Source: Halocatena salina (GTDB lineage Archaea > Halobacteriota > Halobacteria > Halobacteriales > Haloarculaceae). From it: a stretch of 64,000 nt of DNA. Positions 15,594-20,605 of the stretch are shown piece after piece (position 1 is the stretch's first letter; the number at the start of each line of letters is the position of its first letter). The stretch is taken from the NCBI RefSeq assembly GCF_023115355.1, contig NZ_CP096019.1:1488001-1552000 (forward strand), written 5' to 3'. The position numbers and the translations under genes were made by a program. The notes under the pieces are model-generated. The model had not been told where the DNA came from. It saw nothing but the letters and a program-made list of their open reading frames with translations, and made no database searches.

Positions 15594-16271
15594 CTATCCA
15601 TCATCAGAGAGCCATGTTTCAGGCATTTGGATGATGTAATGGCCGTTCTCCTGGAGGGCAATGATGTATTCCTCGCGGTCGTACAGTTCCATCAAGTTGA
15701 GTTCGTACTGTCCCGGTTCGAGGATTTTGATCGACTCGAACTGATCGTTGAGTTCCGCCCGAAGTTCCGCGAGATCTGGCTGTTCGCCGGTCGGCTCTCG
15801 AACGACACGACCGTTACTTGGTGGGGGATCAGAAGCGGGAGCCGATCGAGATGACTCTGATGAAGGGGTATCGGGTGTGTGAGGGGGAAGACTGTCGGAG
15901 GAAACGAACTCGGATCGAGCGGTCGCTTGGGCAGAATCCTCCGGTCCATCGGAAGGGTCCGGCTCGGTAGAATCGAGTACATCGGCGTCTCGCCCCTCGT
16001 CAGTACGCTCGGAGCGTACCTCGTCGGCCACCGGTGGATCCGACGAACCACTCGACATCAATCCACGGACGATCGAAGTCGCGCGACCGACACGCGTGCC
16101 GACAGCCCCTTCAGGCGGGTCCGGCGGCTCCTCGGCCACCGGAGCGTCCCCATCATCCACGTCGTCTGGTCGGAACTGAAACGTCGTTCCCCCACACTCT
16201 GGACAGCCCGAAAGCATCTCCTTCGAGCCATCCCCAAACACACAGCCGCAGTTAGTACACTGGTGTGGCAT
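15594..16271 (-). CDS. oapC: Origin-associated zinc-ribbon protein OapC
   Basis: A 225-residue protein. An N-terminal zinc ribbon has CTNCGC at about 5-10 and CPEC at about 23-26. A long low-complexity linker rich in Asp, Glu, Ser and Pro (about 40-165) follows, then a conserved C-terminal domain (AELNDQFESIKILEPGQYELNLMELY, ending in HYIIQMPE). In Haloferax volcanii the genes next to the major origin on the strand opposite orc1 are named oapA, oapB and oapC, and the order here matches. The biochemical role is unknown. The linker suggests a flexible tether between the metal-binding head and the C-terminal domain. Confidence 0.85.
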   Translation of the reverse strand: MPHQCTNCGCVFGDGSKEMLSGCPECGGTTFQFRPDDVDDGDAPVAEEPPDPPEGAVGTRVGRATSIVRGLMSSGSSDPPVADEVRSERTDEGRDADVLDSTEPDPSDGPEDSAQATARSEFVSSDSLPPHTPDTPSSESSRSAPASDPPPSNGRVVREPTGEQPDLAELRAELNDQFESIKILEPGQYELNLMELYDREEYIIALQENGHYIIQMPETWLSDDG

Positions 16272-16285
16272 TAGCGCTCGATTCG

Positions 16286-16660
16286 TTACTGTGTTACAAG
16301 GGCCTGGATCAAGTTTTCATCCTTGTGGAGCGTCTCGATACGGTTGGCCGGGCCAATAACGGTCAGTTTGTTCGGTGGATCACGACCAAAGAGCCGGCTG
16401 AAAAATCCAGGATTCGATTCTTGTTGTGGATAACTCTCGATTTCGATGCCGGTGAATTCATCGGGACTGATCTCGTTCATCGTCACCTCAATGAGCTTGG
16501 ATTCCTCGTCAGGCGAGAGCCCCTCTTCGAGAATAACAATGTTCCCCTCGCGGACGCCATCGAGAATGAGGCGGATCTTTTCCATGCTACGGAGACTTTG
16601 CATCCGCTCACGGCTAACGAGGTCGATCTGCACACCGTCTTCCGTCGTTATGTCAACCAT
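16286..16660 (-). CDS. oapB: Origin-associated DUF2073 protein OapB
   Basis: A 124-residue protein of the archaeal DUF2073 family: DGVQIDLVSRERM, MEKIRLILDGVREGNIVILEEGLSPDEESKLIEVTMNEI, and a C-terminal LTVIGPANRIETLHKDENLIQALV. The function is not established. It follows oapA closely: a GTG at 16669 would overlap the oapA stop (GTGA), but the ATG at 16660 is preferred because MVDITTEDGVQIDL fits the family N-terminus and GGTGA lies just upstream. Close packing with a GTPase suggests a partner or regulator of that GTPase. Confidence 0.85.
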   Translation of the reverse strand: MVDITTEDGVQIDLVSRERMQSLRSMEKIRLILDGVREGNIVILEEGLSPDEESKLIEVTMNEISPDEFTGIEIESYPQQESNPGFFSRLFGRDPPNKLTVIGPANRIETLHKDENLIQALVTQ

Positions 16661-16665
16661 CTGAT

Positions 16666-17916
16666 TCACCCGAAATGGTCCGCGATTTTGTCGTAGACTT
16701 CTTCCATATTGTCCCCTTCGAGAGCGGATAGAGGTACCACCTCGTGCTGTGGGAACGCGTTGACGATGCGCTGGACGCTCGCGTCGTCCAGATCGATCTT
16801 GTTGGCGAAGATCAACACCGGTAGATCTCGGCTCTCGATAATCCCGACGAGCATCGTATTGACCTGTGTGAACGGGTCCGTCGTGCTGTCGAGCACGTAG
16901 ACGACGCCGTCAACGTCCTCTCGAAGCCAGTGCATGGCTTCTGCAACGCCTTCGGTTGCCTCTCGAGACCGGCGTACGGCGTCCTCTTTGGTCATATCGT
17001 GTTCGAGGAATTCGTTGTAATCGACCTTCGTGGTCACCCCCGGTGTGTCGACGATATCGATGGTAACAGCCGATCCATTGCGTTCGATCTCGACGTTCTC
17101 CTTTCGGCGGGCTCGACGGGTTTCGTGAGGAACGTGGCTTTCGGGACCGACCGCGTCGCCCGTCCAATCCCGCGCAACGCGGTTCGCAAGCGTCGTGTTG
17201 TGAACGACAAGTCCATCAGACGTCGTGAACGTATGGTGTTCGGGAACGGTAAGATCGTAAATGGCACCGTCGTACTCCACCGTGTCGATCGAAACGACCG
17301 GCTCCCACACGATGTTCTCGCCGTGAGAGGTATCGACCGTCGACGAAACGGCCGTGTGTACACCACCGTCAGTCATAAACCGACTGCTAGTATCGGTTCC
17401 CCCACTGGACGACCAGCGATCGGAAGTGGTGAGGGGAGAGACAGTAGGGAAACGAGCGATGGGGGTTCCTACCGAAAGGGCTTGTGCCTGCTGTTGGGTC
17501 ACGTCGCCGTCCGATCGGACGATAAACGGATGTTCGGGGCTAACGACGACTGAACTTCCCGAACTAGTCCGGACGCGGTACATCTCACCTCGATATCGCT
17601 GACGAAACACGTGCGAGACGGTCGCCGGAACGATCGACAGCTCCCCGGTCAGCGCCGGTACACGGATCCCTGCTTCCGAACATTCGATCCATCGCTCGTG
17701 CGGTAAATCACTCACGTCAGGCGCGTCCGGACACGCCGTCCGCGCAGACGAGTAGATATCGTCGATCGATCGACGGGTACCGTCCCAAAGCAGTACCTCT
17801 TCGTCTGCCGCAAGACATTTTCCAGCGTTTGGCGGCCCGTAAATACCTATCCGCTTCGGTTCACTTCCCGAGAACAGCTTTGAAATGCTGTCTTTGATGC
17901 TCGCTATCAGACCCAT
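16666..17916 (-). CDS. oapA: Origin-associated Era-like GTPase OapA, interrupted by an intein
   Basis: The 416-codon frame encodes a 209-residue Era/Obg-type GTPase split by a 207-residue intein. Host part: N-terminal amphipathic start, then G1 P-loop GPPNAGK|TT split exactly after the Lys, G3 DTPG, G4 NKID in IFANKIDLDD, and G5-like SALEG near the C-terminus. The intein occupies residues 34-240. Before splicing the P-loop is disrupted, so GTP binding should depend on splicing. The ATG at 17916 has a TATA-like CTTAAGTA at about 17972-17980 upstream. It is the first gene of the oapA-oapB-oapC unit, diverging from the replication origin. Confidence 0.93.
   Translation of the reverse strand: MGLIASIKDSISKLFSGSEPKRIGIYGPPNAGKCLAADEEVLLWDGTRRSIDDIYSSARTACPDAPDVSDLPHERWIECSEAGIRVPALTGELSIVPATVSHVFRQRYRGEMYRVRTSSGSSVVVSPEHPFIVRSDGDVTQQQAQALSVGTPIARFPTVSPLTTSDRWSSSGGTDTSSRFMTDGGVHTAVSSTVDTSHGENIVWEPVVSIDTVEYDGAIYDLTVPEHHTFTTSDGLVVHNTTLANRVARDWTGDAVGPESHVPHETRRARRKENVEIERNGSAVTIDIVDTPGVTTKVDYNEFLEHDMTKEDAVRRSREATEGVAEAMHWLREDVDGVVYVLDSTTDPFTQVNTMLVGIIESRDLPVLIFANKIDLDDASVQRIVNAFPQHEVVPLSALEGDNMEEVYDKIADHFG
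17197..17817 (-). other. Mini-intein in the OapA P-loop
   Basis: 207 residues starting with Cys1 and ending with His-Asn, followed by Thr as the +1 nucleophile. Block A is CLAADEEVLLWDG. Block B is YRVRTSSGSSVVVSPEHPF, with the TxxH-like region reading SPEH. Blocks F/G are YDGAIYDLTVPEHHTFTTSDG then LVVHN. The centre (about 100-170 of the intein) is short, Ser/Thr-rich and lacks LAGLIDADG or HNH motifs, so no homing endonuclease remains. All splice-critical end residues are present, so it is predicted to splice. Confidence 0.93.
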
Positions 17917-18176
17917 CCTAACGCGCTCCTCCCACGGCCGTCGGCCGCGTATACCCGCAACTCTCCATCCGATGTACTTAAGCGTGCGTCAGACAACCAT
18001 ATCTTTGTTTTGGTATTATTTTTGCAACATCTCATAGTAGTATATTTTGGTTGGAGAGAACGCTATTAACTTGAGAGATGAAGTTGTCTTGACAAGTCGG
18101 GATCGACAGTATTGTTTGAGGTCACGGTTTGTTTTCTAATAGATACTCGATCGTTAAATGGTCGGGGGTCCCACTA

Positions 18177-18207
18177 ACCCCCCCCACCCCTTCGTTTCAA
18201 CTGGAAC
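18177..18207 (-). repeat. Origin recognition box ORB1
   Basis: On the minus strand, GTTCCAGTTGAAACGAAGGG followed by a run of G. This is the haloarchaeal ORB consensus with its G-string, bound by Orc1/Cdc6. It is identical in its first 20-plus bases to ORB2 but in the opposite orientation. Confidence 0.9.
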
Positions 18208-18478
18208 GCCTAGAAGGGTGGGTACCCTCTAGAAATAACGAATTTATAATGTCATCAAAAAATTAATTACTGTAGTTGGTACTGTATAACACAAAGAACT
18301 AGAACTAGATAGCGGAACTAGCAAACAAACTACCTAGAAACAAGCTAGTAACAGTAAAAACAGAATAAGTAGTTTCTTTTCTTATCCTACGGATGCATTT
18401 CTCAGGCCTTCCTATTAAAACTTCCGCTATACTAGTACTCGCTCCACGGTTCTCATTTCCGCCCTAGGCCTTGTACGG
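18208..18478. other. Replication origin: AT-rich DNA unwinding element
   Basis: About 270 bp, distinctly AT-rich and without genes, lying exactly between the inverted ORB1 and ORB2. It holds runs such as AAAAAATTAATTA (about 18257-18268), three AACTAG repeats (18297-18302, 18303-18308, 18316-18321) and several other CTAG tetramers. Inverted ORBs around an AT-rich core next to orc1/cdc6 is the established arrangement of haloarchaeal oriC. Confidence 0.9.
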
Positions 18479-18509
18479 GTTCCAGTTGAAACGAAGGGGT
18501 GGGGGGGTT
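18479..18509 (+). repeat. Origin recognition box ORB2
   Basis: GTTCCAGTTGAAACGAAGGG plus a G run, the plus-strand counterpart of ORB1. The two G-strings point away from the AT-rich core. Confidence 0.9.
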
Positions 18510-18540
18510 TGACGTGATATTCCGACACGATGTTCCGTAA

Positions 18541-18694
18541 TATCCCAACGTCACATCGTAGTATCCCAACGTCATATTCTCGTACGTCATGTTCTAGCTC
18601 ACATCCTCCACCGTGATCATCCATCAATCAGCGTGATCATCAGGCACCCCAGAGACTAGATCACCTACAGCTATATCTGGCTATATCACCTACA
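18541..18694. repeat. Short direct repeats between ORB2 and cdc6
   Basis: TATCCCAACGTCA occurs at 18541-18553 and 18562-18574 (21-bp period), with a degenerate third copy ending in TACGTCA at about 18590. CGTGATCATC occurs at 18612-18621 and 18632-18641 (20-bp period). ATCACCTACA occurs at 18660-18669 and 18685-18694. No gene lies here. They may be protein-binding sites of the origin. The remainder to 19,050 is AT-rich and gene-free. Confidence 0.75.
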
Positions 18695-19055: not shown

Positions 19056-19101
19056 TTATTATAACGAATGCGCGGATCGGTTCCACTTGAAATGGAGGGG
19101 T
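19056..19101 (+). promoter_or_regulatory. cdc6 promoter with overlapping ORB3
   Basis: The TATA-like TTATTATAAC lies at 19056-19065. GGTTCCACTTGAAATGGAGG (ORB-like, 19079-19101) covers the predicted transcription start and ends 10 bp before the cdc6 ATG. Binding of Orc1/Cdc6 here would be expected to repress its own gene. Confidence 0.75.
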
Positions 19102-19111
19102 GAACGAAGGA

Positions 19112-20605
19112 ATGCCAGACACAAGCAGGGACGGAGATTCGGACACCATATTCGACGAGGAGCCAGTCGACACCGACGGTCAAAACGCGTTGTTCGATGG
19201 ACTCCCCGGGGATGAGGAGGCTTCTCGGGGACTGTTCGATGATCTTCTCAATAGCGAGCCGATTTTCGAGAACAAAGAGGTTCTACGGCCGTCGTACACC
19301 CCACGCCGTCTTCCACACCGCGAAGAGCAGATCAACAACATGGCCACGATCCTCGTGACGGCACTTCGTGGCGACACGCCATCGAACATCCTCATTTACG
19401 GAAAAACTGGAACCGGAAAAACCGCTTCAGCGAAGTTCGTCAGCGAAGAACTCGAAAGCACTTCCGAGAAGTATGAAGTTCCGTGTGAGGTGCAGTACAT
19501 CAACTGCGAGGTCACAGACACTCAATATCGCGTCCTCGCTCAGCTCGCAAACACGTTCATCGACCAGAACGAGCAGTACATCGATCAGCAACTGTCCGAG
19601 CTGAACGATCTCAAAGCACGCGCAAACGAGTCCGTCTCCGTACTTTCGGAGACGGAGTTCGACTCGATCACGGCGATCGACGACCGAATCGAGACGTTGA
19701 CGGACGACCGCGAACAGTTCGAATCCGTTCCGATGACGGGATGGCCGACCGATCGGGTGTACTCCACCTTTTTCGAGGCCGTCGAATACGCCGAGCGCGT
19801 GGTAGTTATCATGCTTGACGAGATCGACAAACTCGTCGAGAAGAGCGGTGACGACACGCTGTACAACCTCTCACGGATGAACTCCGAGCTCGAAAATTCG
19901 CGCGTCTCCATCATCGGTATTTCGAACGATCTGAAGTTCACGGACTTCCTCGATCCACGCGTCAAATCGAGCCTCGGTGAAGAGGAGATCGTCTTTCCAC
20001 CCTACGACGCAACACAGCTCAAAGACATCCTCCAACACCGATCGGAGGTAGCGTTCAAATCGGGAGCACTCTCCGACGACGTAATCCCGCTGTGTGCGGC
20101 GTTTGCAGCCCAAGAACACGGTGATGCTCGTCGGGCGCTGGATCTCCTTCGGACCGCGGGAGAGCTTGCAGAACGCGATCGAACGGATTTCATCGAGGAA
20201 GAACACGTCCGTCAAGCCCAAGAGAAGATCGAACTCGACCGCGTAGTCGAAGTCGTCAGAACGCTCCCGACACAATCAAAACTCGTTCTATACGCCATTA
20301 TTCTCCTCGAACGCCACGGTGTTCGCAACATCAACACCGGCGAGGTGTTCAACATTTACAAACAACTCTGCACCGAAATCGGTGTGGACGTGTTGACACA
20401 GCGTCGTGTAACCGATCTCATCAGCGAGCTAGACATGCTCGGGATCGTGAACGCTGTCGTGGTCAGCAAAGGACGGTACGGACGAACCAAAGAGATGAGT
20501 CTCTCCGTCCCTCTTGAGGACACCGAAACGATCCTGTTGAGCGACTCTCGGCTCGCAGACGTAGAAGAAGCACAACCGTTCGTCCAAGCTAGATTCGACG
20601 AGTAA
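19112..20605 (+). CDS. orc1: Orc1/Cdc6 replication initiator
   Basis: A 497-residue AAA+ initiator that binds ORBs, opens the origin and loads MCM. It has an acidic N-terminal extension (about 1-50), the YTPRRLPHREEQI entry block, Walker A GKTGTGKT, Walker B VVIMLDEIDKL, sensor-1 region SIIGISNDLKFTDFLDPRVKSSL, sensor-2 region GDARRALDLLRTAGELA, and a C-terminal winged helix (about 400-490). A roughly 60-residue insertion after Walker A (ELNDLKARANESVSVL and following) is typical of haloarchaeal paralogues. The ATG at 19112, preceded by GAAGGA, is preferred over the GTG at 19100, which lies inside ORB3. Its place beside the ORB-flanked core marks it as the cognate initiator. Confidence 0.95.
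   Translation: MPDTSRDGDSDTIFDEEPVDTDGQNALFDGLPGDEEASRGLFDDLLNSEPIFENKEVLRPSYTPRRLPHREEQINNMATILVTALRGDTPSNILIYGKTGTGKTASAKFVSEELESTSEKYEVPCEVQYINCEVTDTQYRVLAQLANTFIDQNEQYIDQQLSELNDLKARANESVSVLSETEFDSITAIDDRIETLTDDREQFESVPMTGWPTDRVYSTFFEAVEYAERVVVIMLDEIDKLVEKSGDDTLYNLSRMNSELENSRVSIIGISNDLKFTDFLDPRVKSSLGEEEIVFPPYDATQLKDILQHRSEVAFKSGALSDDVIPLCAAFAAQEHGDARRALDLLRTAGELAERDRTDFIEEEHVRQAQEKIELDRVVEVVRTLPTQSKLVLYAIILLERHGVRNINTGEVFNIYKQLCTEIGVDVLTQRRVTDLISELDMLGIVNAVVVSKGRYGRTKEMSLSVPLEDTETILLSDSRLADVEEAQPFVQARFDE

Follow-up and report, generated by a model that had tools for sequence, protein, structure and literature searches.

A predicted mini-intein in the P-loop of the haloarchaeal vesicle GTPase OapA/ArvA

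The oapA (arvA) gene of Halocatena salina is interrupted in its P-loop by a 207-aa insert that, judged from its sequence, is a class 1 mini-intein for which splicing is predicted. With a probability of roughly 85%, it is a degenerated homing intein—fixed, devoid of its endonuclease, and inherited within the genus Halocatena/Actinarchaeum—that is retained because ArvA depends on its splicing. A literature search found no published intein for OapA/ArvA or for any small vesicle-type GTPase, and oapA is absent from the 13 host genes and 24 sites of the 2014 survey of halobacterial inteins (PMC4071816). The oapA intein appears to be a new allele in a new host gene; its mechanism and evolution are ordinary, neither being new. 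The oapA P-loop offers a natural series of empty, full-length, intermediate, and mini states at a single site, and, with a measurable host output (vesicles) and a deletion that is viable in Haloferax, regulation of a host by its intein could be tested here without lethality.

The Insert in oapA

The window (the whole 64,000-nt stretch of H. salina DNA analyzed) contains the features listed in Table 1. The intein extends from C34 (minus-strand codon 17815-17817) to N240 (17197-17199) and separates K33 from T241 in the G1/P-loop, giving the arrangement GPPNAGK/C...HN/TT; these codons agree exactly with the mini-intein limits given in a preliminary description of this DNA. Read without the insert, the gene encodes an intact 209-aa GTPase with GPPNAGKT, DTPG, and NKID. 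That the insert is beyond chance follows from the 19 other oapA genes sharing the codon boundary and from most orthologues being empty there.

Table 1. Features of the oapA intein and its surroundings, in window coordinates
Feature	Coordinates	Strand	Description
oapC (arvC)	15594..16271	minus	PF09845 7.8e-27; after oapB
oapB (arvB)	16286..16669	minus	PF09846 6.3e-42; overlaps oapA stop
oapA/arvA precursor ORF	16666..17916	minus	416 aa, 209 aa after predicted splicing; Pfam GTPase families; orthologues 64-89% identical
C-extein of OapA	16666..17196	minus	176 aa plus stop, begins TTLANR; DTPG, NKID, SAL intact
Mini-intein in OapA	17197..17817	minus	207 aa, Cys1 to Asn207
C-terminal splicing domain	17197..17319	minus	blocks F and G, YDLTVPEHHTF...VVHN; TIGR01443, invariant columns
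Linker at endonuclease position	17320..17451	minus	intein residues 123-166; alignment gap against 466-482-aa inteins
N-terminal splicing domain	17452..17817	minus	intein residues 1-122, Cys1; alignment, pLDDT above 85
Block B SPEH	17530-17541	minus	inside N-terminal splicing domain
N-extein of OapA	17818..17916	minus	33 aa, C-terminal end is P-loop GPPNAGK; against empty orthologues
Inverted repeat, left arm	18176-18217	plus	42 nt, origin-recognition-box-like
Inverted repeat, right arm	18469-18510	plus	42 nt, partner of the 18176-18217 arm
orc1/cdc6 replication initiator gene	19100..20605	plus	NF001625 7.3e-196; divergent from oapA

The insert matches the Pfam Intein_splicing profile (5.9e-18) and the NCBIfam profiles for the intein N-terminus (1.8e-12) and C-terminus (4.9e-07), and its phmmer matches in the PDB are the Pyrococcus CDC21, M. 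jannaschii KlbA (MJ0781), and RadA inteins. An AlphaFold2 model has a mean pLDDT of 83.9, with the splicing domain at high confidence and only residues 127-166—unstructured, and at the position that the endonuclease occupies in full-length relatives—below 50. The solved structures most similar to this model in Foldseek are inteins (4e-13 to 6rpq), led by the Pyrococcus CDC21-1 and RadA inteins, and the modeled fold is that of a Hint domain. The window intein gave no LAGLIDADG match in the profile search, but LAGLIDADG_3 (Pfam) matched two of the eight full-length same-site inteins (4e-25 and 3e-20) and the core could be aligned in the rest; the endonuclease core is thus missing, as had been proposed.

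The splice residues named earlier (Cys1, His-Asn, and Thr at +1) are all present in the alignment, with Cys1 and VVHN/TT found in 20/20 same-site inteins. Block B reads SPEH rather than the canonical TxxH: its His is kept but Thr is replaced by Ser, and SPxH is invariant in 20/20 inteins, full-length relatives included. The residues expected to carry out class 1 chemistry are Cys1, the His of block B, the Asp of block F, His206-Asn207, and Thr+1. A second intact oapA copy was looked for in the genome, and the gene proved to be single copy.

According to the proposed explanation, a homing intein carrying a LAGLIDADG endonuclease would have entered the conserved P-loop codons of haloarchaeal oapA/arvA; in the Halocatena/Actinarchaeum lineage it would then have become fixed, lost the endonuclease, and been inherited vertically as a mini-intein. 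The precursor would be translated with a broken G1 loop (K33 joined to Cys1) and is predicted not to bind GTP. Cys1 would attack, Thr241 would act as the second nucleophile, and Asn207 would cyclize, freeing the 209-aa ArvA with GPPNAGKTT. The need for ArvA would hold splicing functional; the intein itself is not known to have a function. Because the Walker A Lys and the next Thr are 207 residues apart before splicing, GTP binding by the unspliced precursor is very unlikely, as predicted from established knowledge of P-loop GTPases. The structure model of the precursor has low confidence in the extein and is unusable for the pre-splicing GTPase state.

Gene Neighborhood and Function of ArvA

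The identity of the host protein as OapA/ArvA is given by the G motifs present after splicing and by the operon with oapB and oapC. Its description as an "origin-associated GTPase" is correct as to location, with orc1 and the 42-nt inverted repeat (arms 90 percent complementary, between oapA and orc1) adjoining the gene; the label is dated, though, the protein now being known as ArvA. OapA is not known to act in replication. Two pairs of short tandem repeats (21 and 20 nt) also lie near the origin-like inverted repeat, at 18536-18577 and 18602-18641.

OapA (HVO_3014) has been renamed ArvA, the extracellular-vesicle GTPase of Haloferax volcanii, in which a knockout is viable, with strongly reduced extracellular vesicles and slightly faster growth, and overexpression raises vesicle output 3.5-fold (PMC10927574). 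By analogy, a vesicle role would be expected of ArvA in H. salina.

Distribution and History

The survey covered 391 haloarchaeal genomes, all of which matched the OapA query, one of them (G314) weakly (oapA may be missing from that assembly). Homologues with the same insertion and with empty sites were both found: 14/391 genomes (the window genome and 13 others) carry an insert at the site and 377/391 have no intein of the oapA family there, with 33 distinct empty sites read directly. Eight of the inserts are full-length (466-482 aa, with the LAGLIDADG core and a C-terminal helix-turn-helix-like segment) and six are shortened (183-275 aa). Scanning of a second genome collection yielded further oapA inteins, including two more minis (L071 and L074). 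Named carriers are Halocatena pleomorpha, Halocatena marina, Actinarchaeum halophilum, Halomarina halobia, Natronosalvus hydrolyticus, and Natronomonas aquatica, along with several MAGs. Outside the haloarchaea, no oapA insert occurs among the phylum matches listed. A viral carrier was also considered and rejected, no relative being found in IMG/VR, as was a large insert in one oapA gene (G002, L083; 670-aa frame), where the frame merely stays open upstream and the site is empty.

An endonuclease-less oapA intein is found in 7/7 Halocatena/Actinarchaeum genomes, although in two of them (G391 and G277) one and the same locus seems to have been sampled. These two assemblies are identical in coordinates and sequence at a number of loci; the larger one, G391, has 9 percent contamination and may be a mixture that contains G277.

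On the splicing-domain tree, the minis are scattered and a single mini clade is rejected (AU p 0.00025), which requires at least two losses of the endonuclease, three or four being probable. The intein of Halocatena marina (L006; 275 aa) has lost the LAGLIDADG core and kept a decayed helix-turn-helix segment. That of the MAG SW_7_65_23 (L071) equals the QS_4_66_20 intein (L011) minus 801 bp in frame; apart from this deletion, the two differ by five synonymous and no nonsynonymous changes, compared with 3 percent of bases between their exteins. Intein presence is patchy, requiring at least eight state changes on the extein tree (41 sequences). For QS_4_66_20/SW_7_65_23 (0.034 vs. 0.124) and TcBr11_E2g14/G046 (0.33 vs. 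0.66), the intein has about one-quarter to one-half the dS of the extein, as recent movement predicts, and the intein DNA of the former pair being more alike than the flanking extein suggests just such movement. In close Halocatena/Actinarchaeum pairs, by comparison, the dS of the intein lies close to or above that of the extein, in line with vertical descent. The history fits the usual homing cycle of invasion, endonuclease loss, and vertical persistence.

Splicing as a Possible Switch

The preliminary description had proposed that splicing acts as a switch, for example under salt, redox, or temperature change. In its present form, this alternative holds that the intein gates ArvA in response to salt, temperature, redox, or a partner or delays its activation and thereby sets vesicle output or cell shape, the archaea concerned being pleomorphic. 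The P-loop site makes activity depend on splicing, and conditional splicing is known for other P-loop inteins (RadA, DnaB) and for a halophile intein (PMC5790916, PMC6195587, PMC10663303); ArvA dose sets vesiculation in Haloferax, where loss of the protein alters cell shape (PMC10927574). The intein is also retained genus-wide. However, fixation in the genus is shared by the MCM-d and PolII inteins—the MCM-d mini-intein was read directly in 6/7 genomes, with an intein-domain match in an equally long frame in the seventh, and PolII inteins recur across the genus—which weakens the case for domestication from presence throughout the genus, and the linker evolves fast. Nor does retention of the splice residues after endonuclease loss imply a switch, since any intein in a needed protein must keep them. 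No positive sign of conditional splicing emerged, and we regard a switch as unlikely.

With respect to redox, the best-known mechanism, a disulfide trap between Cys1 and an N-extein cysteine, is excluded, because all 41 OapA exteins lack cysteine. Two cysteines of the intein itself, Cys29 and Cys46, are shared by 6/6 Halocatena/Actinarchaeum inteins examined and could matter. Temperature, redox, and salt cases of conditional splicing have been reviewed (PMC10663303), among them a Halobacterium salinarum intein with salt-dependent splicing, as cited in that review; a salt need of splicing in a haloarchaeon may simply reflect protein folding.

The genus Halocatena/Actinarchaeum includes hypha- and spore-forming haloarchaea (PMC10067837), which would suit a form of the switch in which splicing gates ArvA, its rate governs vesicle release or cell-shape change, and this role accounts for retention of the mini-intein. 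This version is less probable still: a vesicle/shape GTPase that needs splicing in every member and the hypha/spore habit are linked by association only.

Selection on Splicing

Selection for splicing, by contrast with the switch, is borne out by substitution rates. Between the window and H. pleomorpha, the intein as a whole has a dN/dS of 0.115, its splicing domains being at 0.071 and its linker at 0.318, and the extein has a dN/dS of 0.014; the intein and extein values in the Actinarchaeum pair are 0.188 and 0.025, respectively. Across genus pairs, the splicing domains give ~0.07-0.18, the linker 0.32-0.50, and the extein 0.014-0.045, all as simple NG86 counts from few pairs with high dS. 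Splicing domains well below 1 indicate that splicing is under purifying selection, and, with no stop codon or frameshift in 20 oapA inteins, both ArvA and its splicing are maintained, although Haloferax can do without oapA under laboratory conditions. Purifying selection cannot separate an intein that must splice from one whose splicing is regulated.

These data leave it hardly credible that the intein is dead, with splicing lost or inefficient and oapA a de facto null: the viable, slightly faster-growing Haloferax deletion (PMC10927574) and the block B Ser would fit such a state, but the open frames, the constraint on exteins and splicing domains within the genus, and the equally invariant SPxH of the full-length relatives all argue against it.

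Related Inteins in Other Hosts

By sequence comparison, the nearest relative of the oapA intein in another host is the MCM-a (CDC21-a) intein. The haloarchaeal MCM-a and Pyrococcus CDC21-1 (6rpq, 6rpp) inteins lie, like that of oapA, directly after the Walker A lysine; MCM-a matches the oapA intein over its full length, through splicing domain, endonuclease, and helix-turn-helix (E down to 4e-51), and CDC21-1 is the best fold match. Unlike OapA, a GTPase with Thr at +1, the MCM-a host is an AAA+ helicase with Ser at that position. The full-length similarity and shared P-loop position suggest that the oapA intein may be derived by a jump from MCM-a. In the tree, the two form separate, well-supported clades, a joint clade being neither shown nor rejected (AU p 0.144), and their consensus target DNAs share 19/42 bases (from four empty MCM sites only).

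The Pyrococcus IF-2 intein (NF011418, an HMM of P-loop plus intein) interrupts a translational GTPase at the point of the G1 loop that is also used in oapA, but its host belongs to another GTPase family and is far larger. The P-loop mini-intein of Pyrococcus horikoshii RadA (4e2t, 2lqm) has the same fold, but resides in a RecA-type ATPase and is held back by its extein, with no such sign for oapA. The genus-wide MCM-d and PolII inteins, the former endonuclease-less at 182-183 aa, differ in lying outside the P-loop and in being already-listed halobacterial alleles (PMC4071816, PMC10643990).

Full-length P-loop inteins also occur in EF-2 of two haloarchaea (L118 in G389, 526 aa; L119 in G218, 533 aa), at a site, AHVDHGK/C...HN/TTL, that is the same G1 position as in oapA; the halobacterial alleles catalogued in PMC4071816 do not include them. 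Outside the window, the H. salina genome (G000:C1) carries inteins at 602510, 810013, and 1238846, in MCM-d (182 aa, mini), the DNA polymerase II large subunit (473 aa), and RNA polymerase A'' (493 aa), respectively.
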